Of a stretch of DNA of 64,000 bases, positions 2,428 to 44,039 are shown piece by piece (within the stretch, counting starts at the first letter, position 1; each line of letters begins with the position of its first letter). This DNA comes from Arthrobacter sp. AFG7.2 (GTDB taxonomy: Bacteria; Actinomycetota; Actinomycetes; Actinomycetales; Micrococcaceae), in NCBI RefSeq assembly GCF_002892835.1, contig NZ_PJMB01000010.1, positions 62,001-126,000 of the forward strand, in the 5' to 3' direction. Under the pieces are notes generated by a model that was not told where the DNA came from, did no database searches, and saw only the letters and a list, made by a program, of their open reading frames with translations. A program made the position numbers and the translations under genes.

Positions 2428-4854
2428 GTGCCCGGCCGGATGTTTGCTTTCCTCGCCACACTGCTGATCGCGGTCCTGTCCGCCGTTGGACCCGCAGCGC
2501 CGGCGCAGGCTGCCAGCAGTTTTCCAGAGGAAGGCAAGCCGCTGCTCGGGGCAGTCCTTGAATGGGGCGAGGATACCGCTGCCGGTTTTTCTGAACGGCT
2601 CGGGGCGTCCCCGGCAATCTTCGGGCACGACATGGCGTTCCCTTCCCGCGCCTCGGAAGAGAACGACATCCGGGGATTCCTGGAACAGTCCGCCGGTCAG
2701 GGCGCCCATGCGATGCTGACGGTCAGGCCCACTGTTCCCCTGGCAGAGGTTTCTGCTGCAGCAGCTGCAGACTTCGCCGAGGATGTGCGGCGGCTGGCCG
2801 GGAACTTCGACGGGAAGCTGCTCATTCGCTTTGCCCCGGACATGAACGCCAGCTGGGTGGACTGGGGCCAACAGCCGGCTGCCTACCGTTCGGCGTTCCA
2901 GGCAATGACGGCGGCCTTTCGGAGTGCCGATGCCAGCGGCCGTTACCTGATGGTGTGGGAACCCTACCTGGGTAAGGACTATCCCTTTGACCGGAACCGG
3001 AATGCGCCGGCGCCCGGAAGCGAAGGCTTCGCCCTGCTGGATACCAACGGCGACGGCGCCTGGACGGGTTCAGATGCTGCCTACGAACCCTTCTATCCGG
3101 GCGACGACGCCGTGGACTGGGTTGGGCTGACGGCCTACCATGACGACACTGCTGGAGGCGCAGCAGTCAATACGGTCCCTCGGTCGGGTGAACTGCAGGA
3201 AATGCTGACCTCCTCGGGTGGGGAAAACTTTTACGGCACGTATGCGGACGGGCGTGACAAACCCTTTCTGCTGCAGACGGCTGCTTTTTACAGTCCGGCC
3301 TCCGGTGGCGGATCGGAAGCCGACATCAAGAATTCGTGGTGGGACCAGGTGCTCGGTACTGCCGGGTCAGCTGGCTTCGCCCTTACCGGGGCAGTGGTCT
3401 GGGACGAGCGCACCAGCACCCGCGACACCGGGGTTGCAAGCATCGACTGGCGGCTGACGGGAAACTCCACCATTGCCGACGCGGCTCTGGCCCGGCTGCA
3501 GGCCTCGCCTGTGGTGACCGGGCCCGTCACGGACATCAGCGCCGGGAACGGGTTGAGCAGGTCCAATACCCTGTCCGGCGCGGGGGCCTGGGCCGTGGGG
3601 GCGGCGCTCATCATCCTGCTGGTGGCGCTGTGGCGCATCCCGGCCAGACTGGGCGCGGTATCGGCATGGGCGTACAGCGATCCCTCCAGCAGGGACTCAC
3701 GGGTGGACCTGCTGCGGGGCCTGGCCATCGTCTTTGTGGTGGTGAACCACCTCGGCATGGTGTCGCTCTTCCAGCTCCTGACCCAGGAAGCGGTGGGCTT
3801 TGTTTCTGGTGCCGAGCTGTTTGTCCTGTTCTCCGGCCTGGTGGTTGGCATGGTCTATAGACCCCGGGCCAAGGAGGATCTGGGCACCGTGGTGGACCTG
3901 ACCTCGCGGCGGGCGGGGAAGCTCTACCTGACGGCGCTCGTGGTGCTGGTGGGTGTCTTCCTTATGTCACTGCTGCCAGTTTTCCGGACAGAAGCACTCA
4001 CCACTTTCAGTGACCAGGGCACCGGCGGGGCAGGGCACGACGGGGCCGGCCGCACCTACGATCTGTATGCCGGGATGGAAACACTGTTCCAGTTCCCTGT
4101 CCCGGCGCAGGTCCTGCCCGCCATCCTGCTGCTGCAGTTTGGGCCGTGGCAGTTCAACGTGATGGGCCTCTACGTGGTGCTGCTGCTGGCCAGCCCGCTC
4201 ATCCTGGCCGCCCTCAACCGCGGCAAAGCCGTGTGGGTGCTGGCGGCAACACTTGCCCTGTATGCCGTGGGTACGGTGACGCGCTTCCGACTCCTGCCGT
4301 CGCAGTTCGAGGATTCCTTCCCCTTGCTGGTGTGGCAGGTGCTGTTCATCATCGGCCTGGTGGCCGGATTCCACCGGCGCAGCATTGTCGCCTGGCTTTC
4401 GGCACACCCCTGGGTGGTGGCGGCCTGTACTGCTGCGGCCTTCGCGTTCGCATTCCTGTCCTGGGGAAACCCGTACCTGGCCAACGGGTTCGACGTCCGC
4501 CTGGCGATCATCCCGGATACCCTGTACCGGACCATGTACGACCTGCTCTTTGGACGCACCTATCTTGCCCCCGGCCGGTTACTCAACGTCCTGGTCCTGG
4601 TGGTGGCAGCCTATGCCTTCCTCACTGCGTACTGGAGGCCGGTGCAGCGGGCCCTCGGCTGGTTCCTTGTTCCTTTGGGCCGTGCCACCCTCTACGTCTT
4701 CATCATGCACGTGGTGCTCATCGCCGTGGTGGCCAATATCCCGGTGCTCCAGCAGGGAGATGTCCTCATCAACACGCTGGCCTACATCGTGGTGCTGGGG
4801 CTCCTCTGGGTGATGGTGCGGACACGGTTCCTGTTCCGCATCATCCCAACCTGA
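2428..4854 (+). CDS. Exported GH26-like domain fused to an OpgC-type membrane acyltransferase
   Basis: An 808-residue protein in two parts. Residues 1-28 form a signal peptide or first membrane helix ending in APAQA. Residues 35-360 look like a GH26-type (beta-mannanase-like) barrel: IRFAPDMNASW at 133-143 and DDAVDWVGLTAYH at 226-238. After a helix near 385-403, residues 425-800 form an OpgC-like polytopic domain starting DLLRGLAIVFVVVNHL. OpgC enzymes transfer succinyl groups onto periplasmic glucans. The usual catalytic Glu residues of GH26 appear replaced (Asp138, Gln283), so the barrel may bind rather than cut glycans. A DxNxDG calcium-type loop lies at 205-216. The GTG start lacks a clear ribosome site; ATG at 2440 is the alternative. 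Confidence 0.75.
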   Translation: MPGRMFAFLATLLIAVLSAVGPAAPAQAASSFPEEGKPLLGAVLEWGEDTAAGFSERLGASPAIFGHDMAFPSRASEENDIRGFLEQSAGQGAHAMLTVRPTVPLAEVSAAAAADFAEDVRRLAGNFDGKLLIRFAPDMNASWVDWGQQPAAYRSAFQAMTAAFRSADASGRYLMVWEPYLGKDYPFDRNRNAPAPGSEGFALLDTNGDGAWTGSDAAYEPFYPGDDAVDWVGLTAYHDDTAGGAAVNTVPRSGELQEMLTSSGGENFYGTYADGRDKPFLLQTAAFYSPASGGGSEADIKNSWWDQVLGTAGSAGFALTGAVVWDERTSTRDTGVASIDWRLTGNSTIADAALARLQASPVVTGPVTDISAGNGLSRSNTLSGAGAWAVGAALIILLVALWRIPARLGAVSAWAYSDPSSRDSRVDLLRGLAIVFVVVNHLGMVSLFQLLTQEAVGFVSGAELFVLFSGLVVGMVYRPRAKEDLGTVVDLTSRRAGKLYLTALVVLVGVFLMSLLPVFRTEALTTFSDQGTGGAGHDGAGRTYDLYAGMETLFQFPVPAQVLPAILLLQFGPWQFNVMGLYVVLLLASPLILAALNRGKAVWVLAATLALYAVGTVTRFRLLPSQFEDSFPLLVWQVLFIIGLVAGFHRRSIVAWLSAHPWVVAACTAAAFAFAFLSWGNPYLANGFDVRLAIIPDTLYRTMYDLLFGRTYLAPGRLLNVLVLVVAAYAFLTAYWRPVQRALGWFLVPLGRATLYVFIMHVVLIAVVANIPVLQQGDVLINTLAYIVVLGLLWVMVRTRFLFRIIPT

Positions 4855-4891
4855 TTCCTTAGCGGCCCCGGTAGTCCTGCCGGTCTGGAAA

Positions 4892-5563
4892 TTACGGCTG
4901 AGGCAGGATCAGTTGGTGGAGCAGGTGGTCCTGCCACTGCCCGGCGATCTGCAGGTACTTCGGGGCCACCCCGATCTCCTGGAACCCGGCCCGCTGCAGG
5001 ATTTGCCGGGACGGTTTGTTATGGAGCAGCGTTGCTGCCTGGATGCGGTGGAGACCGAGTCCATCACGCGCGTAGCCGGCTGCAAAGCGGACGGCTGCTG
5101 TGCCGATTCCTTGTCTCGTGAGGCCGTGGTCCACCCAGTAGCCCAGGTTGGCGCTGAGGAAGGGGCCACGGACAATTCCCGTCAGCGTGACGGCCCCCAC
5201 CACATGCTCACCGCCGGTGCCGCTCCCCGGCGTGCCGGCGGCGTCGTCCTTTTGCTCCACCACAATCCACGGAAGCTCGGAGCCGGCAGCGTGCAGCGCA
5301 CGCTTGCCACGGATGAGCTCGAGCTGGTGCTCCGGAGTGAAGAAGCTGTCGTCGCGGTGTGGTTCCCAGGGTGCGAGGTGCCCGCGATTCCGCTGGTATG
5401 CCTCTGCGAGTGCGCCCGCATCCCCCTCCGTCAGCGGGCGGATGCAAAGTCCTTCCCTCAAATACGTGCTGCTGCCAGTCAAGAACGGGACTCCTTCAGA
5501 GAGCGGCTCCGAAGCAGCGTTTACTCCACGGAAATAAGAATGGTACAGCACGGACACTGTCAC
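4892..5563 (-). CDS. GNAT-family N-acetyltransferase, RimJ/RimL type
   Basis: A protein of up to 223 residues with a GNAT fold: the first strand REGLCIRPLTEGDAGALAEAY, a central ANLGYWVDHGLTRQGIGTAAV block carrying the acetyl-CoA-binding QGIGTA loop, and the late HRIQAATLLHNKPSRQILQRAGF segment that RimJ/RimL-type enzymes show before the last strands. It probably acetylates a ribosomal protein, an amino acid or a small amine; the substrate cannot be read. The GTG start at 5563 gives an N-terminal extension of about 30 residues that does not look like the family, so a start nearer 5490 is possible. It ends convergently 37 bases from the OpgC fusion. Confidence 0.8.
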   Translation of the reverse strand: MTVSVLYHSYFRGVNAASEPLSEGVPFLTGSSTYLREGLCIRPLTEGDAGALAEAYQRNRGHLAPWEPHRDDSFFTPEHQLELIRGKRALHAAGSELPWIVVEQKDDAAGTPGSGTGGEHVVGAVTLTGIVRGPFLSANLGYWVDHGLTRQGIGTAAVRFAAGYARDGLGLHRIQAATLLHNKPSRQILQRAGFQEIGVAPKYLQIAGQWQDHLLHQLILPQP

Positions 5564-31594: not shown

Positions 31595-33582
<1,988 letters not shown>

Positions 33583-33584
33583 CC

Positions 33585-34268
33585 ATGCCCCATCACGGTA
33601 ACGAGGAAGAGCACACTTCCACAGACCAGGAGCGGCAGGGCAACGGCCACCAGGAACCGGTCATCCGGGACAACCGCAAGGTTGACCCGGTGACAGGCCA
33701 GGCCCGTCACCACGAAGGGGACAGCCATGCATCGGCTTCGGAATCTCAGGATTCCGACGGCGATGCGCTGGCCCAGGCAGAGGAGATCCTCAACGGCGTT
33801 GAGGTGCCGGCTGCGGAATCGGTTGCCCAGGGGGCTGCGTCAGGTTCAGCCAATGCTGAGGCTGCCGAGCTGAGGAACGACCTCCTCCGCCTGCAGGCCG
33901 AGTACGTCAACTACCGCAAGCGCGTTGAACGCGACCGCGCCGTGGCAGGGGAGATGGCCGTCATTGGCGTCCTGAACTCCCTGCTCCCGGTCCTGGACGA
34001 TGTCGACGCCGCACGGCAGCACGGCGACCTCACCGACGGACCCTTCGCCGCGATCGCCACCAAACTGGAGAACGCGCTGAAGACCTACGGCCTGGTCCGG
34101 ATCAACGAGACAGGCGTGGGATTCGATCCAACAATCCACGAAGCCCTGATCCAGCAGCCCGGCGAGGACATCGAGGTTGACACCGTCAGCCAGGTCCTCC
34201 GCTCCGGCTACAAGTCAGGCGACCGCGTCCTTCGGGCCGCCCAGGTCATCGTGGCGGTTCCGGCTTAG
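33585..34268 (+). CDS. grpE: Nucleotide exchange factor GrpE
   Basis: A 227-residue protein starting two bases after the dnaK stop. An acidic, low-complexity N-terminal third (1-85) precedes the coiled-coil LRNDLLRLQAEYVNYRKRVERDR and the beta-domain with FDPTIHEALIQQPGEDIEVDTV, the typical GrpE signature near the end. GrpE exchanges ADP on DnaK and acts as a thermosensor. It is followed by an unusual 300-base palindrome-rich gap before dnaJ. Confidence 0.95.
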   Translation: MPHHGNEEEHTSTDQERQGNGHQEPVIRDNRKVDPVTGQARHHEGDSHASASESQDSDGDALAQAEEILNGVEVPAAESVAQGAASGSANAEAAELRNDLLRLQAEYVNYRKRVERDRAVAGEMAVIGVLNSLLPVLDDVDAARQHGDLTDGPFAAIATKLENALKTYGLVRINETGVGFDPTIHEALIQQPGEDIEVDTVSQVLRSGYKSGDRVLRAAQVIVAVPA

Positions 34269-34311
34269 TCGGGGTACTTCCGGCGCTACGCCCTCGTTGG
34301 GACCGCGCCGA

Positions 34312-34525
34312 ACGGATAAGGGGGCCCCGCCCCTACGCTGGGTGGCGAAGATCTACGATCCTTCGCCACCCAGCTCCGATAGGCCCGATGCCACTCCCGG
34401 GCCCCCTTATCCGTCCGTCGCTCAGCGCTCGTCTCGCCTAAGGTGAGATGACCGCACCGCGCGCAGCTGGATAGGGGGCCGCGGCGTGGCGGGCACCGCG
34501 GAGCGGGCACGGCCCCCTATCCAGC
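34312..34525. repeat. Two large inverted repeats between grpE and dnaJ
   Basis: The 307-base gap holds two related structures. ACGGATAAGGGGGCCC (34312-34327) is the exact inverse of 34399-34414, and inside it GCTGGGTGGCGAAG (34337-34350) pairs with 34361-34374. Further on, GCTGGATAGGGGGCCG (34466-34481) is the exact inverse of 34510-34525. The outer arms share GGATA-GGGGGCC. No T-tract follows. This looks like a REP/BIME-type palindromic element inserted in an operon; it could lower dnaJ and hspR expression relative to dnaK. Confidence 0.8.
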
Positions 34526-34575
34526 GGAGCGAAACCGCGCCGAGCACTTAGGTTTGAACAAGAAAGGAAACGCCA

Positions 34576-35547
34576 TTGGCTAGCCAGGATTGGGTGGACA
34601 AGGACTTTTACAAGATCCTTGGTGTTGCCAAGGACGCTTCCGACGCCGATATCAAGAAGGCCTACCGGAAGCTTGCACGGCAGCACCACCCTGACACGAA
34701 CTCGGGGGACACCGCTTCGGAGAAGAAGTTCAAGGACATCTCCGAGGCCTATTCCGTGCTTTCGGACCCTGATGAGCGCCAGCAGTACGACGCTATCCGG
34801 GCCATGGGCGGTGGCGCCAGGTTTGCACCCGGCGGCGCGGGTGGCGGCAATGCCGGCTTCGAGGATATGTTCGGCGGCCTGTTCACCGGCAACACCGGGC
34901 GGCATGCAGGGGGATTCAACCCCTCCGCAGGCGGCATCCCGCCGGAGTTCGCCGACCTCTTCGGCGGTGGCTTCGGCCAGAGCGGCTTCCAGCGGACCCC
35001 GCAGAAGGGCGCGGACCGCACAGCGTCCACCAGCATTTCCTTCGCCGGCGCGATCCGCGGCACCACCATCGGCCTGCGTGAGCCCAGCGGCGAAGTGATC
35101 GACGTCCGGGTGCCTGCCGGCATCAAGGACGGGCAGAAGGTCCGCGTGCGCGGCAAGGGCCAGCCGGGTGCCGCCGGCAACGGTGACCTGGTGGTGTCCG
35201 TGTCGGTCCAGCCGCACGCGTTTTACACGCGCGACGGCGACAACCTCCGCATCCACGTCCCCGTCACCTTCCCCGAAGCTGCTATGGGGGCAGACATCGA
35301 GGTGCCCACCATCGACGGCGACAAGGTGCGGGTCCGTGTTCCGGCCGGTACGCCGTCGGGCCGGACGTTGCGGGTCAAGGGCAAAGGCGTGAAAACGTCC
35401 AAGGGGACCGGCGACCTGCTGGTGACCATTGACGTCGCCGTTCCCAAGAACTTGAACAAGGACGCCGAAGCCGCGGTCAAGGCGTTTGCCGAGGCCACGG
35501 CTGGAGCCGATGTCCGTGAGGGCCTGGCCGCCAAGGCCCGGTTGTAA
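34576..35547 (+). CDS. dnaJ: DnaJ-type co-chaperone lacking the zinc-finger domain
   Basis: A 323-residue J-protein starting at TTG with AAAGGAAA upstream. The J domain (about 9-75: [16 protein letters not shown] at 39-41) and a G/F-rich linker (80-150) are followed directly by the two C-terminal beta-domains (from [15 protein letters not shown]). No CXXCXGXG repeats, indeed no cysteine at all, so it is a type II (CbpA-like) protein. It stimulates DnaK ATPase and delivers clients. A zinc-finger DnaJ is presumably encoded elsewhere. Confidence 0.93.
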
Positions 35548-35561
35548 CAGGGAGGTGTGCT

Positions 35562-35987
35562 GTGGACGTCAGTGCTGACCAGCCGATCTTCGTGATATCG
35601 GTTGCGGCTGAGCTAGCGGACATGCACCCCCAGACGCTCCGGCAGTACGACCGGCTGGGCATCGTTTCGCCCAGCCGGGCTCCCGGCAAATCCCGCCGCT
35701 ACTCGCAGCGGGACATCAACATGCTCCGTGAAGTCCAGCGGCTGTCGCAGGAGGGAGTGTCGCTGGAAGGGATCAAGCGGATCCTGGAGCTTGAAAACCA
35801 GGTGGCCGCCCTGCAAAGCCGGGTCTCTGAGCTGACCGAGGAACTGGCACGGCGCCGGCAGCCCCTGGACGCGCGGATCTTCGCAGCGGGCGCAGCCGGT
35901 GATGTGGTGAGCCTGGCACGGGGCCAGCGTCCGCGTCCGCGGTCACAGGCCCTGGTGCTGTGGCGGCCGCGCGCCATCGGAAAATAA
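35562..35987 (+). CDS. hspR: Heat-shock repressor HspR, MerR family
   Basis: A 141-residue MerR-type protein from the GTG at 35562 with GGGAGG upstream. The N-terminal winged helix (about 9-75: FVISVAAELADMHPQTLRQYDRLGIVSPSR, then RRYSQRDINMLREVQRL) is followed by a coiled-coil dimer helix. Fourteen bases separate it from the dnaJ stop. As last gene of the operon it closes the loop: with DnaK it binds the HAIR repeats at 31595-31668. Confidence 0.95.
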   Translation: MDVSADQPIFVISVAAELADMHPQTLRQYDRLGIVSPSRAPGKSRRYSQRDINMLREVQRLSQEGVSLEGIKRILELENQVAALQSRVSELTEELARRRQPLDARIFAAGAAGDVVSLARGQRPRPRSQALVLWRPRAIGK

Positions 35988-36043
35988 GTACCACCGCCGC
36001 GTGCCGGCGGGAAATAGAGTACTCACTACTCGTGCCCCCGGAG

Positions 36044-36110
36044 CCCCCGGAAACTTCAATGGAACCACTGCTGGATCAGCAGCAGTGGTTCCAAGGTTTC
36101 CGGGGGTTTT
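36044..36110 (+). terminator. Nested hairpin terminator of the dnaK operon
   Basis: CCCCCGGAAAC (36044-36054) pairs with GTTTCCGGGGG (36096-36106), followed by four T residues. Inside, GGAACCACTGCTG (36061-36073) pairs with the complementary stretch ending at 36092, making one long cruciform-like stem. Confidence 0.92.
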
Positions 36111-36156
36111 CCATGTGTGCTTTCACGTTTTACAGCCCTGCCGCTGAGGGGGACCG

Positions 36157-36555
36157 GTGAGTCCGGGGATGGAGTCGGTGGCAGCCTTCAGCGGCTCTAT
36201 TCCCGGCCAAGTGATGCTGGCACTGGGACAGACGATAGTGGTGGTGTGCGTCTGCTTCGACATGGTGCGCGCGCTGTCCGTCCCGCGGTCCCACCGGCGA
36301 TACCTGGCCAGCACGGTGTTCCGGACGCTTGCGGTTCCGTCGATCATTGCCAACGGAGTGACGGTGCTTATCGCTTTGGTGCTCTGGTCCTGGATCGACG
36401 TGGTGATGGGTATGTTCGTGCTGGTCGCCATCATCTTCCGGCTGCACCACGACAAGGACGAGGACAACTGGTGGAAGGGCAAAGGCAGGAAACTCGCCCG
36501 CTGGGCGCGCCGCCGGTTCGCCGGCGGGACCTCCACCGCGCCCGCCATGGGGTAG
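36157..36555 (+). CDS. Small membrane protein of unknown function
   Basis: A 132-residue protein from a GTG with GAGGGGGA upstream. Three hydrophobic segments can be seen: about 17-38 (GQVMLALGQTIVVVCVCFDMV), 53-75 and 78-92, followed by a strongly basic C-terminus (KGKGRKLARWARRRF) that should stay in the cytosol. I do not recognise the family. It stands between the dnaK operon terminator and the arsenic cluster and converges on arsO with 24 bases between stops. Confidence 0.65.
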   Translation: MSPGMESVAAFSGSIPGQVMLALGQTIVVVCVCFDMVRALSVPRSHRRYLASTVFRTLAVPSIIANGVTVLIALVLWSWIDVVMGMFVLVAIIFRLHHDKDEDNWWKGKGRKLARWARRRFAGGTSTAPAMG

Positions 36556-36579
36556 ACGCTTTGGGCCCAGGGTATTGAC

Positions 36580-37971
36580 CTAGTTGCTGCCGGAGCGGCC
36601 GTGTGAGAGGCCGGTGGGAAAGCCCACCAGCATCGGTTCGGGGGCTGTGCAGCAGCCTGGGTCCGGCTCGGCTGCGGTTGCTTCTCCGGGGACGTCGCAG
36701 CTGGTGCCGGCATCGGTGGAGCAGACGCCGGTTTCGGGGAGTTCCAGCTGCACGGCGTCAGCTGCTTCGCGGTCACCCGCGAGGGCTGCCACCACGGAGC
36801 GGACCTGTTCATACCCGGTGGCCAGGAGGAAGGTGGGCGCTCTGCCGTAGGACTTCATGCCCACGATGTAGAAGTTCCTGTCCGGGTGGGCCAGCAGCCT
36901 GGCGCCGTGCGGCGGGACGGTGCCGCAGGAGTGGAACTCCGGGTCGATCAGCGGGCCGAGCTCACGGGGAGCTTCGACGGTGGGATCAAGCTCCAGCCGG
37001 AGCTCGCGCAGGATGTCCAGGTCGGGACGGAAGCCGGTGCAGGGGACTACAACGTCGGCATCAAGGGTGCGGCCATCGGCGGCTTCGACTGTGACATGGG
37101 TGTCGAGGGTCTTCAATGAGCGGATGCCGAAGCCGGTGTGGAGCTCGATTTTTCCTGCTTCCACGAGCCGCCGGACGCGGCCGCCCAGCTGGCCGCGGGC
37201 AGGCAGTCCGTCGGCGTCACCGCCGCCGTAGACTTTCTCCGCCGAGGCGCCGCGGACAGCCCATAGGACGCGGGTATCAGGTTCTTCCCTGGTGAGCCCG
37301 GCGAGGCTGATGAGCGTGTTCGCCGCAGAGTGGCCCGCCCCCACCACCAGGGCACGGCGTCCTGCGAAGGCCGCCCGGTCCCGGCCTGTGACGTCCGGCA
37401 GAGGCCGCGAGATCCGCGCGGCCGCGCGTTCTTCGCCGATGGCGGGAAGGCCGGAGGTGCCCAGGGGGTTGCGGCGGGACCAGGTACCGGAGGCATCAAT
37501 AACCGCGGCGACGGTATGGCCCCGGGTTTCTCCGTCCTCATGCAGGACCCGGACGATGAAGGGTGTGGTGTCCCGGTTGCGGGTATGGGTCTTGTCCAGC
37601 CCCTCACGGGTGACGGCGACGACGCGGGCGCCCGTGTGCAGCCGGGAAGCTATTGGGGGCAATGCGGCCAGCGGTGCGAGATAGCTGTCCACGATTTCCC
37701 CGCCGTACGGCAGCGCAGTGGGCCGGGGGCCTTCCCAGCCGCTGCGCTCCAGCAGGCGGACCGCCGCCGCATCTAGGTTGAACCGCCAAGGGGAAAACAG
37801 CCGGATGTGCCGCCATTGGTCAATGGCCGCGCCCGCCGTCGTACCTGACTCGAAGATGAGCGGCTCAAGGCCGCGCTCCAGCAGGTGCGCCGCGGCAGCC
37901 AGGCCAACGGGGCCGGCGCCGATGACGGCAACGGGAAGGTCAGATGCTGGAAGGATCTGTGCTGCGTCCAT
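36580..37971 (-). CDS. arsO: ArsO-like flavin monooxygenase with a Cys-rich tail
   Basis: A 463-residue FAD/NADP-binding protein. GAGPVG (18-23) is the FAD dinucleotide loop and ALVVGAGHSAANTLISL, near 210, the NADPH one, as in flavin monooxygenases and the CzcO/trkA-like group. It is the last gene of an arsenic operon in the order acr3-arsC-arsT-arsO, matching the ArsO/ArsT genes described in Streptomyces arsenic islands; its precise reaction is unproven. The last 50 residues carry Cys417, Cys425, Cys440 and Cys441 in a Pro/Ala/Glu-rich tail, which could bind As(III). Confidence 0.8.
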   Translation of the reverse strand: MDAAQILPASDLPVAVIGAGPVGLAAAAHLLERGLEPLIFESGTTAGAAIDQWRHIRLFSPWRFNLDAAAVRLLERSGWEGPRPTALPYGGEIVDSYLAPLAALPPIASRLHTGARVVAVTREGLDKTHTRNRDTTPFIVRVLHEDGETRGHTVAAVIDASGTWSRRNPLGTSGLPAIGEERAAARISRPLPDVTGRDRAAFAGRRALVVGAGHSAANTLISLAGLTREEPDTRVLWAVRGASAEKVYGGGDADGLPARGQLGGRVRRLVEAGKIELHTGFGIRSLKTLDTHVTVEAADGRTLDADVVVPCTGFRPDLDILRELRLELDPTVEAPRELGPLIDPEFHSCGTVPPHGARLLAHPDRNFYIVGMKSYGRAPTFLLATGYEQVRSVVAALAGDREAADAVQLELPETGVCSTDAGTSCDVPGEATAAEPDPGCCTAPEPMLVGFPTGLSHGRSGSN

Positions 37972-38011
37972 GGGGTCCTGCTTTCATCCGTAGGGCTGGC
38001 CGCTCGTGTGG

Positions 38012-38063
38012 CCCAACCAGGTGCAGTAGAGGCTGTTGTGACACTTGCTGCTGCCTGGTTGGG
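38012..38063 (-). repeat. Inverted repeat between the Cys-rich peptide frame and arsO
   Basis: CCCAACCAGG (38012-38021) and CCTGGTTGGG (38054-38063) are perfect inverse copies 32 bases apart, with further weak pairing of GCAG and CTGC inside. On the minus strand the structure would form in the mRNA just before arsO and may tune its expression. No T-tract is present. Confidence 0.6.
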
Positions 38064-38077
38064 GGAGGGGGGTGTGA

Positions 38078-38149
38078 TTAGCAGCAGTCTTGGTCAGTGC
38101 AGGAACCGTCGTCGCAGCAACCGGAATCGTCGCAGCATCCTGTACCCAT
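38078..38149 (-). CDS. Candidate 23-residue cysteine-rich peptide in the arsenic operon
   Basis: On the minus strand an ATG (38149) opens a 23-codon frame ending in TAA (38078-38080). Seven residues are Cys, at 5, 6, 11, 12, 17, 22 and 23, and six are Asp; the motif CCDDSGCCDDGSC shows a CC-DD repeat. The upstream stretch GGAGGGGGTGAGCTGA gives a plausible ribosome site, and arsT ends 30 bases before the start. Composition recalls metallothionein- and phytochelatin-like thiol ligands. Chance cannot be ruled out for so short a frame, but cysteine density, position and ribosome site together suggest an As(III)-binding or sensing peptide. It is not a member of a family I know. Confidence 0.55.
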   Translation of the reverse strand: MGTGCCDDSGCCDDGSCTDQDCC

Positions 38150-38178
38150 TCAGCTCACCCCCTCCCCTGGCAGTGTTT

Positions 38179-39198
38179 CTAGGCGTGGGTTGGTTCTTCC
38201 ACCAGTGCGGTGGCGATGCTGTCCGCGTCCTCGAGGGCCGCGAGGTAGCGTTCGGCGTCGAGCGCTGCGGCGCAGCCGGTGCCGGCGGCGGTGATGGCCT
38301 GCCGGTAGCGGTGGTCCACGGCGTCCCCGCAGGCAAAGACGCCCGAGAGGTTGGTGACCGTGGTGGGGGAGTCCACCTTGATGTACCCCTCCTCGTCGAG
38401 GTCCACCTGCCCGGCCACCAGTTCGGTGCGGGGCACATGGCCGATCGCGACGAAGATGCCGGTGGCGGACTGCTCGCGGGTCTCCCCGCTGCGGGTGTCC
38501 GTGAGCGTGACGCCAGTGACCTTGCCGTCCCCGTGGATGGCGGTGATGGCTGAGTTCCACGCGAAGCTGATCTTGGGATTGTCCTTGGCACGCTGCGCCA
38601 TGATGCGGGAGGCGCGAAGTTCGCCCTTACGCACGACGACGGTGACGGACTTGCCGAAGCGGGTCAGGAACATCGCTTCCTCCATGGCCGAATCGCCGCC
38701 GCCGACGACGATGATGTCCTGCTCGCGGAAGAAGAACCCGTCGCAGGTGGCGCACCAGGAAACGCCGTGGCCGCTGAGCTTTTTCTCCTCGGGAAGGCCA
38801 AGTTCCTTGTAGGCCGAGCCAGTGGCCAGGATAACGGCAGGGGCTTCGTGCACGTCGCCGCCGCCGGTGACCACCCGCTTAAGGTGCCCTGTCAGCGTCA
38901 CCTCCGTGACGTCGTCGAACACTACCTGGGCGCCAAACTTTTCTGCCTGTTCCTGCAGCCCGTCCATGAGCTCCGGGCCCTGGATGCCGCCCGGGAACCC
39001 GGGGAAGTTCTCCACTTCGGTGGTGTTCATCAGGGCACCGCCCGCGGTGACCGAACCCGCCAGGACCAGCGGCTTCAGGCCGGCGCGGGCAGCGTAGATG
39101 GCGGCGGTGTAGCCGGCAGGGCCGGAACCGATGATGATCAGCTGTTCGGTGTTCACGGTGTCTGTGTTCCCTGTCTCTGCGTTCACTGTCTCGCTCAT
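38179..39198 (-). CDS. arsT: Thioredoxin-reductase-like flavoprotein of the arsenic operon (ArsT)
   Basis: A 339-residue protein. An 18-residue Thr/Glu/Asn-rich leader precedes [18 protein letters not shown] (FAD loop at 24-29). Cys149 and Cys152 in WCATCDG form the redox pair, [13 protein letters not shown] is the NADPH loop and [15 protein letters not shown] the second FAD site. It should reduce thioredoxin or a related thiol protein with NADPH, supplying electrons for arsenate reduction. Position after arsC matches the arsT gene of Streptomyces arsenic clusters; a housekeeping TrxB role is the alternative. Confidence 0.9.
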
Positions 39199-39224
39199 GG
39201 GAGTCTCCTGGTGCTCTTGGGAAG

Positions 39225-39647
39225 TTACTTGACGGCGGGGGTCAGAGACGCGATCAGGTCCTCAATGCGGACCCTGATCTCGTCGCGGATGGGGCGGACT
39301 GACTCCACGCCCTTGCCGGCCGGGTCTTCCAGGACCCAGTCCTCGTAGCGTTTGCCCGGAAAGTACGGGCACTCGTCGCCGCAGCCCATGGTGATGACGA
39401 CATCTGATTCCTTGACTGCCTCCGTGGTGAGGACCTTGGGAACCTCCGCTGACATATCGATGCCTACCTCGGCCATCGCTTCCACGGCGGACGGATTGAT
39501 ATGGTTGGCGGGCTGGGAGCCGGCGGAGCGCACCTCGATGGCACCCTTGGAAAGGCTGGTGAGGAAGGCCGCGGCCATCTGGGACCGTCCGGCGTTGTGG
39601 ACGCAGACAAACAGGACGGATGGCTTCTTGGCGGTTTCGGTGGTCAT
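39225..39647 (-). CDS. arsC: Arsenate reductase, low-molecular-weight phosphatase fold
   Basis: A 140-residue protein from the ATG at 39647 with GGAGA upstream; the frame extends to 39752 but that part overlaps acr3. CVHNAGRS (Cys15 to Arg21) is the CX5R arsenate-binding loop, and the [17 protein letters not shown] segment holds Cys89 and Cys93 and the acid-bearing DPAG that follows. The close CxxxC differs from the wider pair in the classical thioredoxin-coupled enzyme and is like that of actinobacterial, often mycothiol-linked, ArsC. It reduces As(V) to As(III) for export by the Acr3 protein. Confidence 0.92.
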
Positions 39648-39666
39648 GGTGTTCTCCAGTGGACGG

Positions 39667-40761
39667 TCAGAGGGAAACGGCAGTTGGGGTGAAGAAGCGC
39701 TTGCGCGCCCATAGTGCGGCGTATACAAGTGCAACAAGTGCCGGCACTTCAATCAAGGGGCCGACGACGCCGGCAAGGGCCTGGCCGGACGTGACGCCGA
39801 AGGTGCCAATCGCCACAGCAATGGCCAGTTCGAAGTTGTTGCCCGCCGCGGTGAACGCCAAGGTGGTGGTTTTGGCGTATCCCAAGCCCAGCCACTTGCC
39901 GGTCAGCATTCCTGCGCCGAAGACCACCACGAAGTAGACCAGCAGTGGAAGCGCGATCCGGGCAACGTCCAGCGGGCGGGCGGTGATGGTCTCCCCCTGC
40001 AGGGCGAAGAGGAGGGTGATGGTGAACAGCAGGCCGTAGAGCGCCCACGGTCCGAGCTTGGGAAGGAACGCGCCTTCGTACCAGTCGCGGCCCCTGGCTT
40101 TTTCGCCGAGGGTGCGGGTGAGGAAGCCGGCCAGCAACGGGATGCCCAGGAAGATCAGCACCGAAAGCGTGATGGCCCAGAAGGAGAAATCCGCGCTGGT
40201 GGTGGGGAGGCCCAGCCACGACGGCAGCAGCTGCAGGTAGAACCAGCCCAGTGCGCCGAAGGCCACCACCTGGAAGACGGAGTTAATGGCCACCAGGACG
40301 GCGGCGGACTCCCTGTCCCCGCAGGCGAGGTCGTTCCAGATCATCACCATGGCGATGCAGCGGGCCAGGCCCACGATGATCAGGCCGGTCCGGTACTCGG
40401 GAAGGTCCGCCAGGAACAGCCAGGCCAGGACGAACATGAAGGCCGGGGCCAGGAGCCAGTTGATCACCAGGGAGGAGATCATGAGCTTCCTGTCTGCAAT
40501 CACCCTGTGGGCCTGGTCGTAGCGGACCTTGGCCAGGACCGGGTACATCATCACCAGCAGGCCGACGGCGATGGGCAGCGACACTTCGCCCACTTTGACC
40601 GCTTCCAGTGCGGTGTTGAGGCCGGGCACCACGTTTCCGAGCAGGAGGCCGAGTGCCATTGCGGCGATGATCCACACGGGGAGGAAGCGGTCCAGGGTTG
40701 AGAGTTTGCCGACGACGGCCTCTTCCCCTTGGGCGGGCAGTGTCTCGGTCCGGGTGCTCAC
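39667..40761 (-). CDS. acr3: Arsenite efflux permease, Acr3 family
   Basis: A 364-residue membrane protein with about ten helices. The GTG at 40761 is chosen because GGAGA lies just upstream; an in-frame codon at 40839 would put the start upstream of the operator. VGLARCIAMVMIWNDLACGD contains the conserved Cys in helix 4 that is essential for As(III) transport in the family. First gene of the leftward arsenic operon, with arsC 19 bases downstream. It is controlled by the divergent ArsR through the dyad in between. Confidence 0.93.
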   Translation of the reverse strand: MSTRTETLPAQGEEAVVGKLSTLDRFLPVWIIAAMALGLLLGNVVPGLNTALEAVKVGEVSLPIAVGLLVMMYPVLAKVRYDQAHRVIADRKLMISSLVINWLLAPAFMFVLAWLFLADLPEYRTGLIIVGLARCIAMVMIWNDLACGDRESAAVLVAINSVFQVVAFGALGWFYLQLLPSWLGLPTTSADFSFWAITLSVLIFLGIPLLAGFLTRTLGEKARGRDWYEGAFLPKLGPWALYGLLFTITLLFALQGETITARPLDVARIALPLLVYFVVVFGAGMLTGKWLGLGYAKTTTLAFTAAGNNFELAIAVAIGTFGVTSGQALAGVVGPLIEVPALVALVYAALWARKRFFTPTAVSL

Positions 40762-40786
40762 GGGTCTCCTGGGCGGCTCAGTAAAA

Positions 40787-40841
40787 GATTGATGAAAGTC
40801 GATATAGGAAGTATTGCCAGCTATATCGATGGATGTCAATC
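40787..40841. promoter_or_regulatory. ArsR operator dyad between acr3 and arsR
   Basis: TCGATATAG (40799-40807) and CTATATCGA (40821-40829) are perfect inverse copies. Outside them GATTGA (40787-40792) pairs with TCAATC (40836-40841) at the same spacing, so a 55-base symmetric region covers the divergent promoters. Symmetry and position support ArsR binding. Confidence 0.8.
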
Positions 40842-40860
40842 TATGTGCATAATGGGTGTC

Positions 40861-41211
40861 ATGAACCTCCTGCAGACTGCCGGCCCCGCCGTCGACGCAT
40901 CGTGCTGCGTTCCCTCCAGCAAGCCGGCACTAAGCGTCGAAGAGGCCCAGCGGAAGGCCCTGGTTTTCAAGGCCCTGGCTGATCCCAACCGCCTGCGGCT
41001 GCTCTCCATCGTCAAGGCGGAGGAGTCCGGGGAATCCTGCGTTTGTGATTTGACGGAGCCGCTGGACCTTGGACAGCCCACCGTTTCCCACCACCTGAAG
41101 ATCCTGGTCGAAGCCGGGATCCTGCACCGGGAAAAGCGCGGCACGTGGGCCTACTACTCCCTGGTGCCCGGCGCTTTGGACGACGTCGCCGGGATTCTCT
41201 CCGCGCTGTGA
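40861..41211 (+). CDS. arsR: Arsenic-responsive repressor ArsR
   Basis: A 116-residue ArsR/SmtB winged-helix protein. From the ATG at 40861, Cys15 and Cys16 lie near the N-terminus, the same place as in the Corynebacterium glutamicum ArsR, and Cys60 and Cys62 fall in SCVCDL on the helix used by plasmid-type ArsR. The recognition helix is in LGQPTVSHHLKILVEAGIL. As(III) binding should release it from the dyad upstream. ATG codons at 40843 and 40852 are alternatives; none has a strong ribosome site. Confidence 0.9.
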   Translation: MNLLQTAGPAVDASCCVPSSKPALSVEEAQRKALVFKALADPNRLRLLSIVKAEESGESCVCDLTEPLDLGQPTVSHHLKILVEAGILHREKRGTWAYYSLVPGALDDVAGILSAL

Positions 41212-41239
41212 CGACGCCTCGGGTTGAACTGCGCTGAAT

Positions 41240-42517
41240 TCAGGCGCGCCGGTGATGATCACTTCGGCGCATCCGCACGGCCACCAGCATCCCGGACGAT
41301 GCGGTGATGGCAGCAATCACAAGCACAGCCGCGGGAATGCCGTAAGCGTCGGCCAGCACCCCGGAAAGCAGGGCTCCGACAGCGAAGCCGCCGTCCCGCC
41401 ACAGGCGGTAAATCCCCACGGAACGTGCCCGCCAAAGCGGGTGGGCGACGTCGCCGATTGCCGCGAGGAGCGTGGGGTAGACCATGGCTGTGCCGGCGCC
41501 GAGCAGGATGACGGCAGCGAGCCAGGTGTGGAAATGCTGTCCGACTGCGACCATGGCCAGGGCCGCGGCCTGGACGAGCATGCCGCCGGCGATGAGCGGT
41601 TTGCGGCCGATCCGGTCCGAGAGCGGGCCGGTGATCATTTGCCCGGCGCCCCAGACGGCCGGGTAGACCGCGGCGAGGATGCCGATGCGTTCGATGCTGA
41701 GCCCTGCTGCGGCGAACAGGACGGGGAACAGGCCCCAGGCCAGGCTGTCGTTGAGGTTGTTGACCAGACCGGCCTGGCTGACGGAGGAGAGGGATTTGTC
41801 GCGGAAGCTGGTCAGGGTGAAGACGTCGCGGTTGCTCAGCCCTGCATGGCTGCCGGCGTGGATCGGGACATGGGTGGCGGCTTCGGTTTTGGCATGGTGG
41901 TGGGTTTCCCGGATGGTCAGGACTGAGAGTCCGAGGCCGATGGCGATGAAGGCTGCGCCGAGGAGGAAGGGCCCTGGACGCAGTCCGTAGGTTGAGGCGA
42001 TGTAGCCGGTGGCCAGCGCCGCGCCGGCAACGCCGAGGTAGCCGGCGGCTTCGTTGAGTCCCATGGCCAGGCCGCGGCGTTCGGGGCCCACAAGGTCCAT
42101 TTTCATCATGACGGTGGTGGACCAGGTCAGGCCCTGGCTGATGCCCAGGACGACGTTGGCGGCCACAATCAGGCCCCAGGAATCGCCAGCAATCAGCAGG
42201 AGCGGGACCGGGAGGGCGATGAGCCAGCCGGCGACCAGGACGGGTTTGCGGCCGTAGCGGTCCGAGAAGGTGCCGGCGAAGTAGTTGGTGGCAGCTTTGG
42301 CCAGCCCGAACGCCGCGATGTACGTCAGGGCGGCCGTGTACTGGCCCACGCCAAAGACTTGGTCCGCCAGCAGTGGCAGCACGGTGCGCTCCTGGCCCAG
42401 GGTGCCGCCCACCAGGGCGTTCACTGTCACCAGCAGCATGAACTGCGCCAGGTTCTGCCGCAGGCCCAGCACGACACCGGCGGAGTCCAGTGTCCTTTCC
42501 GCCTTTGTTCCGGCCAT
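41240..42517 (-). CDS. MFS transporter of the sulfur cluster
   Basis: A 425-residue protein with about twelve helices and motif A FSDRYGRKPVLVAGWLIA. A cytosolic loop between helices 6 and 7 is His-rich (ETHHHAKTEAATHVPIHAGSH), which could sense or bind metal. Close relatives of unknown substrate sit beside rhodanese and persulfide dioxygenase genes. It is the last leftward gene of the CstR-controlled set, separated from the dioxygenase by two tandem hairpins, and ends 28 bases from arsR. Confidence 0.82.
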   Translation of the reverse strand: MAGTKAERTLDSAGVVLGLRQNLAQFMLLVTVNALVGGTLGQERTVLPLLADQVFGVGQYTAALTYIAAFGLAKAATNYFAGTFSDRYGRKPVLVAGWLIALPVPLLLIAGDSWGLIVAANVVLGISQGLTWSTTVMMKMDLVGPERRGLAMGLNEAAGYLGVAGAALATGYIASTYGLRPGPFLLGAAFIAIGLGLSVLTIRETHHHAKTEAATHVPIHAGSHAGLSNRDVFTLTSFRDKSLSSVSQAGLVNNLNDSLAWGLFPVLFAAAGLSIERIGILAAVYPAVWGAGQMITGPLSDRIGRKPLIAGGMLVQAAALAMVAVGQHFHTWLAAVILLGAGTAMVYPTLLAAIGDVAHPLWRARSVGIYRLWRDGGFAVGALLSGVLADAYGIPAAVLVIAAITASSGMLVAVRMRRSDHHRRA

Positions 42518-42555
42518 TCCGGGATGCTCGCTTTCGTTCCGGGGACATAAAGGTG

Positions 42556-42614
42556 CCCGGACGCGTGGGGGACGCGTCCGGGCGGGCCCGGGCAGGAGGG
42601 GGGTCTGCCCGGGC
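42556..42614 (-). repeat. Two tandem GC-rich hairpins between the persulfide dioxygenase and MFS genes
   Basis: CCCGGACGCGT (42556-42566) pairs with ACGCGTCCGGG (42572-42582), and GCCCGGGCAG (42585-42594) pairs with CTGCCCGGGC (42605-42614). Neither has a T-tract on the minus strand. They probably act as processing or partial termination signals that lower expression of the distal MFS gene. Confidence 0.7.
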
Positions 42615-42626
42615 GGTCTGAGGGGT

Positions 42627-44039
42627 TTACTTTGCTGAGACGGCGTTCTGTCGGGTCTGCTGGAAGGCGTCCCAGGCGGCGTAGCTGCCGTCGAGTTCGA
42701 CGACGTCGTACCCGGCCCGGCGCAGGGCGCTGGCTGCCACGGAGTTCCGTACGCCGGACTGGCAGTAGGTCACGATGGTGCCGTCCGTGGGGAGCTTGTC
42801 CAGGTGCCACATGACCCGGCCGCCGCTGAGCTGGTACGAGCCGGGGATGTTCCCGGCGATGTGTTCGCTCCGGTTGCGGACGTCCACGACCATGGCCGCG
42901 TCAAAACCCTGCAGCTCTTCCGGCTGGATCAGCTTCGGGGTGGTCAGGGGGAGCCCTTCGATGCTGGTGACGTAGCCGGCGACGTTGTCGATGCCGACCC
43001 GGACCAGGTGGTCCCACATGTCCATGGCCTGTTCCTGGTCTGCTGCGAGCAGTACCAGCGGGTTCTTGTCGGTCTCGGGGTTCACGACCCAGGCGCCATA
43101 GCTGGCAACGGACTTGCCTGCCGGCACGTTCAGGGAACGGGCAACGGTGCCTTCATGGACTTCGCTGTTGGGGCGGGTGTCGATGAAGGTCAGGGTGTCC
43201 TCTGCCAGGCCTGCTGCGACGATGTCGGGTGCGAGCTCGGGCAGCGGGGTGCGTTCGCCCATGATGGCGGGGCCTTCACGGTTTTCGCGCTTCATTCGGC
43301 CGAAGTAGGCGTGCGCGTCGGGCTGGCCGTCGAGGAGTTCGTCGATGAAGCCCTGCTCGTCGTTGGCGGCGAGGTAGGGGCCCCACCAGGAGTAGAGCCG
43401 CTCGTAACCGACCGTGGAGGACGGGATGGCACCGAGGGCCTTGCCGCAGGCGCTGCCGGCGCCGTGCGCCGGGTGGACCTGGACGTAGTCCGGGAGGGTC
43501 AGGAACTTGTCCCGCAGGCTGGCGAAGAGCTGCTTGGCGCCTTCGAAGCGGGTGTCGATGCCGCCGGCTGCCTCGTCCAGCAGGTCCGGGCGGCCCAGGT
43601 CGCCGGAGAAGACGAAGTCACCGGAGAGCAGGTAGCCGGGCTGGTCGCTGAACGCGCCGTCGGTGACCAGGAAGGACAGGTGCTCGGGGGTGTGCCCCGG
43701 GGTGTGGACGGCCTGGATGCTGATGTTGCCGATGGTGATCTTGTCACCGTCGTAAAGGCGTTCGCCGTCGAACTCGTACTGCCAGTCCGGTCCGCCCTCG
43801 CCGGACACGTAGATCTTCGCGCCGGTGGCGGCGGCCAGTTCGCGGGTGCCGGAAAGGTAGTCGGCGTGGATGTGGGTTTCGGTGACGGCGATGATCTTCA
43901 TGCCGTTCTTTTCAGCCAGTTCCTGGTAGACCGCGATGTCGCGGCGGCCGTCGACAACAACCGCGGTGCCGTTGGCCTGGCAGCCAATCAGGTAGCTGGC
44001 CTGGGCGAGGTCTTCATCGTAAATGCGCTCGATAAGCAT
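42627..44039 (-). CDS. Persulfide dioxygenase-rhodanese fusion (CstB-like)
   Basis: A 470-residue protein. Residues 1-250 are a metallo-beta-lactamase fold of the ETHE1/persulfide-dioxygenase type: THIHAD (55-60), His116 in HTPGHT and Asp141 in SGDFVF bind the iron. Two rhodanese domains follow: the middle one (260-350) lacks an active Cys, where a LLAADQEQ segment replaces the loop, and the last (365-465) has Cys426 in CQSGVRN. This is the CstB layout, which turns persulfide into thiosulfate. Its leader has an ATACCCC/GGGGTAT operator. It is the next-to-last gene of the leftward sulfur set. Confidence 0.9.
   Translation of the reverse strand: MLIERIYDEDLAQASYLIGCQANGTAVVVDGRRDIAVYQELAEKNGMKIIAVTETHIHADYLSGTRELAAATGAKIYVSGEGGPDWQYEFDGERLYDGDKITIGNISIQAVHTPGHTPEHLSFLVTDGAFSDQPGYLLSGDFVFSGDLGRPDLLDEAAGGIDTRFEGAKQLFASLRDKFLTLPDYVQVHPAHGAGSACGKALGAIPSSTVGYERLYSWWGPYLAANDEQGFIDELLDGQPDAHAYFGRMKRENREGPAIMGERTPLPELAPDIVAAGLAEDTLTFIDTRPNSEVHEGTVARSLNVPAGKSVASYGAWVVNPETDKNPLVLLAADQEQAMDMWDHLVRVGIDNVAGYVTSIEGLPLTTPKLIQPEELQGFDAAMVVDVRNRSEHIAGNIPGSYQLSGGRVMWHLDKLPTDGTIVTYCQSGVRNSVAASALRRAGYDVVELDGSYAAWDAFQQTRQNAVSAK

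Follow-up and report, generated by a model that had tools for sequence, protein, structure and literature searches.

Resistance to arsenic in prokaryotes is usually described in terms of reduction, methylation or oxidation, and efflux. Phytochelatins are short, acidic, Cys-rich chelators of As(III) that are synthesized enzymatically from glutathione, while the bacterial metallothioneins SmtA and MymT are of ~50-60 residues and bind Zn, Cd or Cu. ArsD, a protein of ~120 residues, is the partner of the ArsA ATPase. The excerpted text of PMC4562236 places the As(III) sites of ArsD at vicinal Cys residues (Cys12-13-18, Cys112-113 and Cys119-120). In Rhodococcus aetherivorans BCP1, a small arsenic-induced DUF2703 protein is encoded immediately upstream of arsO, according to the excerpt of PMC6514093, and in the excerpt of the genome report on Arthrobacter sp. 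B6, only an arsR-acr3-arsC operon is named (PMC5259909). Finally, mycobacterial polycysteine uORFs are presented as leaderless attenuators in the title of Canestrari 2020 (cited in PMC13236596).

Here, we describe a 23-residue peptide, MGTGCCDDSGCCDDGSCTDQDCC, that is encoded inside an ars operon of Arthrobacter sp. AFG7.2 and has Cys at positions 5, 6, 11, 12, 17, 22 and 23. The stretch of DNA that was analyzed, referred to as the window, is 64,000 nucleotides long, and its relevant features are listed in Table 1. On the minus strand, the gene order is acr3, arsC, arsT, the peptide gene and arsO, with arsR being divergent. The initial annotation had placed a frame with these Cys positions between arsT and arsO and in the same direction as both, preceded by a sequence resembling a ribosome-binding site. 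All of this was borne out: the frame is present on the minus strand and the predicted Shine-Dalgarno sequence (SD), GGGGAGGGGGTGAG, lies immediately 5' of the ATG, while the plus-strand frame at 38078-38149 yields no such Cys peptide. It also remains correct that the peptide belongs to no family known from Pfam or NCBIfam, as neither collection returned a match for the window peptide or the submitted relatives at E values up to 1, with profiles being weak at 23 residues. The window ArsC matches arsenate reductase models of NCBIfam without reaching their cut-offs, and the name 'ArsO' is a loose one because the protein scores 57 bits with the ArsO model of NCBIfam, which has a cut-off of 425. 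Neither ArsA nor ArsD was recognized by eye among the ORFs of 33000-44000.

Table 1. Features of the ars operon and the peptide gene in the window
Feature	Position	Strand	Basis or remark
'ArsO', FAD/NAD(P)-dependent oxidoreductase with Cys-rich C-terminal tail	36580..37971	-	Profile matches
Imperfect palindrome CCCAACYAGGYAGC...GTTGGG in the gap between the peptide gene and arsO	38012..38063	.	Sequence reading
Peptide gene	38078..38149	-	23 codons and stop
Predicted SD of the peptide gene	38154..38167	-	Just 5' of the ATG; duplex energy and conserved island
arsT, thioredoxin-disulfide reductase	38179..39198	-	TIGR01292, 381 bits (cut-off 343 exceeded)
arsC, LMW-phosphatase-type arsenate reductase	39225..39647	-	Pfam LMWPc, 81 bits
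acr3, putative arsenite efflux permease	39667..40839	-	ORF named from sequence reading; start codon uncertain
arsR, divergent, N-terminal SCC motif	40852..41211	+	NF033788, 95 bits (cut-off 55 exceeded)

The peptide resembles ArsD, as far as the excerpt describes that protein, in being the product of an ars operon and in having vicinal Cys pairs, which in the peptide are conserved as CC pairs; it differs in having 23 residues rather than the ~120 of the ArsA partner and in matching no Pfam or NCBIfam model, including the ArsD profile. With metallothioneins it shares small size, Cys content and the presumed binding of metal by thiolates, while the Cys spacings differ and no metallothionein model of Pfam matches it (E up to 1). 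It is short, acidic and Cys-rich like phytochelatins and differs from them in being gene-encoded. The DUF2703 protein of strain BCP1 is set apart from the peptide by its description in the excerpt, i.e. a thioredoxin fold with a CXXC motif. The mycobacterial polycysteine uORFs are likewise short, Cys-rich and actinobacterial; by the title, however, they are leaderless, whereas the ORF in the window has a strong predicted SD and sits inside an operon. No such peptide was described in the literature covered (open-licence papers, by titles and abstract openings among the matches listed). Small thiol-based metal binders are known, but a ribosomally made CC-pair micropeptide of 13-31 residues in ars operons of bacteria and archaea appears to be new.

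Among 150 genomes of the genus, 139 had a match to ArsO, part of them weak. We read 110 arsO loci, comprising the 30 best-scoring ones (the window's included) and 80 lower-scoring ones, using an ORF filter that demanded an SD and did not demand a C-terminal CC. An intact, SD-preceded homologue was present upstream of arsO in 52 of the 110 loci (26/30 best-scoring and 26/80 lower-scoring). These 52 peptides represent 48 distinct sequences of 17-31 residues with the prevailing pattern M-x-[TN]-G-CC-x-D-S-G-CC-D-[DE]-..-D-CC; a C-terminal CC is common to all 52, three CC pairs occur in 47, and all are acidic with a net charge of -3 to -8. The description as a seven-Cys peptide is right for the window but does not carry over to most relatives, which lack the seventh Cys (six Cys in 37 peptides, seven in 12 and five in 3). 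When the 52 loci are aligned at the start codon, the information content is high from approximately -18 to -2, over the start codon and again where the gene ends, and positions further upstream and downstream carry little information. Pooled pairwise pN/pS is 0.44 overall and lowest for Cys codons (0.30), followed by Asp codons (0.38) and other codons (0.69), figures that are descriptive because the pairs are non-independent and Cys codons are strongly TGC-biased. The Cys codons and the start codon are conserved.

Because it is absent from 58 of the 110 arsO loci, the peptide is an accessory part of these operons. The 320 nt 5' of arsO in these 58 loci were checked for two close CC codon pairs or an SD with an ATG, and three loci were flagged: a natural variant in which the stop codon is lost (L141), a remnant with SD and ATG in which the Cys codons are gone (L126), and a locus in which the CC pairs fall in an apparent divergent arsR (L164). 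By this pattern check, the 58 upstream stretches contain no credible decayed copies beyond the first two. The scarcity of decayed or frameshifted copies is consistent with the peptide being under selection, bearing in mind that the ORF search itself conditions on open frames. In Markov-shuffled copies of the 110 loci (three rounds, 621 kb), there was one comparable ORF and none with an SD. A strict version of the pattern was found in 3 of 197 genomes of the family to which the window belongs (2/12 in its own genus and 1/185 in others); therefore, the strict form is mostly a trait of Arthrobacter-like lineages, not all members of which have it. A tblastn search of plasmids with the 23-mer, a query of insufficient length and complexity for this purpose, gave no match, although such an ORF is present in four public plasmid records of the Arthrobacter group. 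In these four records, two of which are the same DNA as two of the loci in the genus survey, no separate gene is listed for the ORF, with the gene table being incomplete. In pTC2 of Paenarthrobacter aurescens (L396), an arsO-like gene at 3842-5371 is listed as 'putative Secreted protein' with an upstream start and overlaps the greater part of the unannotated peptide ORF (3831-3893).

The predicted duplex of the SD of the window peptide with the 16S tail, the sequence of which we took from general knowledge, has an energy of -20.4 kcal/mol. In the 52 genus loci, a set filtered for an SD, the predicted energy is -20.7 +/- 0.9 kcal/mol and every locus is at -16.9 kcal/mol or lower. For comparison, the means are -5.0 kcal/mol for arsO (49 starts) and -7.1 kcal/mol for arsT (11 starts), with starts assigned by a fixed rule (the first ATG or Met that fits) and some of them wrong, and the median of 29 long ORFs in the window, each started at its first ATG, is -6.6 kcal/mol. 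This extreme predicted SD suggests high translation of the peptide gene and production of the peptide in excess over the enzymes of the operon. However, the SD region is mostly paired in predicted folds (mean unpaired probability 0.29), which calls for caution over high translation.

To look at the peptide independently of arsenic genes, a pattern free of ars information was scanned against one genome per species in 84,980 species; it consisted of three CC pairs with an Asp/Glu-box codon after the second, and an Asp before and a stop-like codon after the third. The scan gave 76 loci, of which 40 are from Micrococcaceae, as judged by the record title, and 36 from others. In the Micrococcaceae, the ATG frame is intact in 39 of 40 loci, the remaining one having lost the stop, and all 39 intact copies have an ars gene within 500 nt (ArsR, ArsC and ArsO were assigned by tblastn with the window proteins, MIP and MerR by sequence reading). 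The scan and the genus survey are not independent, as 25 of the 40 Micrococcaceae loci are identical DNA to 25 of the 52. They agree, as the initial annotation had held, that an unannotated peptide gene is tied to arsenic operons. Judged from these sequence comparisons, the ORF is a true small gene that belongs to the ars operon. The view that it is a chance or non-functional frame can draw on its very small size and its lack in half of the arsO loci; set against the conservation, the codon pattern, the SD, the stop and the ars linkage, we regard it as scarcely credible.

Outside the Micrococcaceae, the ATG frame is intact in seven of the 36 scan loci and there is none in 29. Four of these seven frames are of 18-26 residues, and three of the four lie within ars clusters, i.e. 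between arsR and arsC in Spirosoma validum, divergent from arsR-arsC in a Thermoleophilia MAG and directly 5' of arsC in a Thermoplasmata MAG. These ars-linked look-alikes belong to three phyla. In Allosalinactinospora (L049:7108-7167), a 19-residue peptide, MCPCCSDPGCECCDRCDCC, with a very strong predicted SD is encoded directly 3' of a MerR-type regulator gene, and this peptide may extend the class to other metals. Three clostridial hits (L046, L048 and L070) were rejected as members of the class; they are proteins of ~60 residues that combine a hydrophobic segment with a CC-rich tail and apparently form a separate family.

The taxa around these finds were followed up in groups that are ranks around the seed genomes, are called after the titles of the seeds and, in the case of the classes, were picked after a first match. 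In the thermoleophilial class, arsC was matched in 86 of 149 genomes, and an SD-preceded CC ORF was found in 4 of the 30 arsC loci read, the seed included. The peptide MQLDCCDECGGDDCC follows arsC-MIP, MTDPCCGGDPGCC overlaps the end of arsR, MDAKRCECDCCKGGNCC is divergent from arsR, and the fourth form, of 45 residues, follows arsR and has a C-terminus other than CC. A 45-residue Cys-rich ORF that overlaps the end of arsR lies at L231:957-1094 (minus strand), where the next gene is diiron-protein-like. In the archaeal class (Thermoplasmata), arsC was matched in 50 of 150 genomes; of 30 arsC loci read, 3 pass the strict filter, one of them being the seed, and one more has such an ORF without a recognized SD. 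A closer look 5' of arsC in 22 of the 30 loci gave the same four peptides, all of which end in CC[DE][DE]CC; the distance from their stop to the active-site motif of the following ArsC is 23-53 nt. Two of 30 arsR loci in the Spirosoma family, again with the seed included, encode the alike peptides METSDCCEIDDCCTD.. and METQDCCEIDDGCTD.. without an SD; genes of Bacteroidota are usually without one. Eight ORFs in this 97-kb set pass the composition filter when no SD is demanded, two of them being the paired peptides, and the Spirosoma case therefore rests on the likeness of the two peptides because six other ORFs pass the same filter. The ArsR proteins of Spirosoma (L106) and of the family member (L327) end in ..SCC and ..DCC, beside a peptide that ends in CC.

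In 29 Actinomycetota arsC loci, the sole SD-preceded case duplicates a thermoleophilial locus. Thirty gammaproteobacterial ACR3 loci have no SD-preceded peptide and two ORFs without an SD, and in seven further genomes from other groups, arsC was found in six and a CC ORF in none of the seven loci. As a control, 660 kb of DNA (33 arbitrary 20-kb genomic regions) contain four CC ORFs and none with an SD. The comparison of six cases in the two seeded classes with none in the control gives p = 1.3e-4, with seeds and duplicates removed and kinship ignored; with the seven cases in all five ars sets, which include the poor Spirosoma-family candidate L205, p = 0.0027, again ignoring kinship. The Micrococcaceae, thermoleophilial, Spirosoma and archaeal peptides are too short for homology to be shown and are compared here by likeness.

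The neighborhood of the peptide gene bears on what the peptide may do. The nearest detected upstream ars gene in the 39 intact Micrococcaceae scan loci is ArsT in 22, ArsC in 13, ArsR in 3 and none in 1, and the next detected downstream ars gene is ArsO in 34, ArsC in 2 and none in 3. Outside the Micrococcaceae, the neighbors are arsR, arsC or a MIP channel; on the sequences compared, the linkage of the peptide with ArsO is a feature of the Micrococcaceae. The frequent position next to ArsT would fit a role as a small redox substrate of ArsT that takes the place of thioredoxin in carrying electrons to the arsenate reductase. That arsC takes this position in 13 loci, that the window peptide has no CxxC motif and that the thermoleophilial, Spirosoma and archaeal look-alikes adjoin other genes makes this role very improbable.

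With respect to ArsO, the C-terminal tail is Cys-rich (GVCS, SCDVP and CC; window 36580-36730), and its Cys residues are kept in all 30 ArsO proteins read, of which 26 are encoded with the peptide and four without. Because these ArsO proteins have the tail irrespective of the peptide, the peptide is not a split-off ArsO tail, and the suggestion that it had been lost from or added to arsO is not supported. The tail is a possible As(III) site within the oxidoreductase, and the peptide and the tail may be independent thiol elements in one operon. This arrangement is relevant to the possibility that the peptide is a partner-specific As(III) metallochaperone that delivers to ACR3, ArsO or ArsR. ArsO is the usual next gene in Micrococcaceae, its conserved Cys tail could take up As(III), and ArsD has such a role via vicinal Cys residues, as described in the excerpt of PMC4562236. 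By contrast, the tail persists without the peptide, the neighbors vary between taxa (arsR, arsC, MIP and arsT) and the unusually strong predicted SD suggests abundance. We rank delivery to a partner second to buffering and consider it unlikely.

The initial annotation had also allowed for a sensor. Read as a cis-acting leader, in which Cys-tRNA supply or arsenite would stall the ribosome on the nascent chain and thereby alter translation of the next gene, this idea is compatible with the Micrococcaceae scan loci, in which an ars gene follows the peptide within 1 kb in 36 of 39 loci and is arsO or arsC each time, and with the mycobacterial polycysteine uORFs reported as attenuators in the title cited in PMC13236596. 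Moreover, pairing of the SD with C-rich RNA 3' of the stop shows a slight excess that would favor a leader, with a mean of -20.33 vs -19.04 in shuffled sequences and -19.75 +/- 0.23 when partners are permuted between loci; in 37 of the 52 loci, it surpasses the mean of the shuffled sequences. In the thermoleophilial look-alikes, however, where genes were called by ORF reading and third-position GC content, the peptide is either the last gene of its run (L323 and L325) or alone and divergent from arsR (L324 and L328); the nearest next genes in all four are on the opposite strand and none is close behind on the same strand. A cis leader is disfavored because these four look-alikes, for which homology is unproven, have no same-strand gene closely behind, an argument that is indirect for Arthrobacter. 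In addition, Asp codons are conserved as well, RNA folding gives no significant structure for the 206-nt region of the window (z -0.62), a search of 37000-41500 with Rfam gave no match, and the gap that separates the peptide gene from arsO differs from locus to locus. We consider the leader to be quite improbable, and on balance, these comparisons favor a trans-acting peptide.

The imperfect palindrome in the gap between the peptide gene and arsO is probably a repeat element outside the peptide system. No copy of CCCAACTAGGTAGC was found within one mismatch in its own genome. Related palindromes are present in many arsO loci (L004-L032), with and without the peptide, and other loci carry a CCTGCCGG type.

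Based on these data, a role as As(III) ligand is the best-supported mechanism, and we suggest that the peptide is a trans-acting As(III)-thiolate micropeptide that would function in the first place as a buffer, a reading to which we give slightly more belief than doubt. In this model, arsenic would induce the operon, and a soluble, acidic peptide of 17-31 residues, usually with three vicinal Cys pairs and CC-terminated, would be produced in larger amounts than the enzymes. The Cys pairs would capture, as three-coordinate thiolates, the As(III) that ArsC sets free, with a stoichiometry of about two As per six Cys. As a result, free arsenite would be lowered and As(III) would be retained until export via ACR3 or a MIP channel. 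The peptide would, in other words, act as a minimal, ribosomally made metallothionein for arsenite, and other soft metals would be bound as well.

More broadly, we tentatively propose, with rather more reservation than for the buffer itself, that bacteria and archaea have widespread, overlooked ribosomal arsenite-chelating micropeptides of 13-31 residues with CC pairs and a C-terminal CC, i.e. gene-encoded phytochelatins, that were repeatedly added to ars operons. Such a peptide is easily synthesized and could find use as a minimal tag for binding arsenite or as part of a sensor. If the proposal is true, functional parts of the well-studied ars operon have been overlooked by gene callers, and intracellular sequestration of arsenite by a ribosomal product would stand beside reduction and efflux in these organisms.
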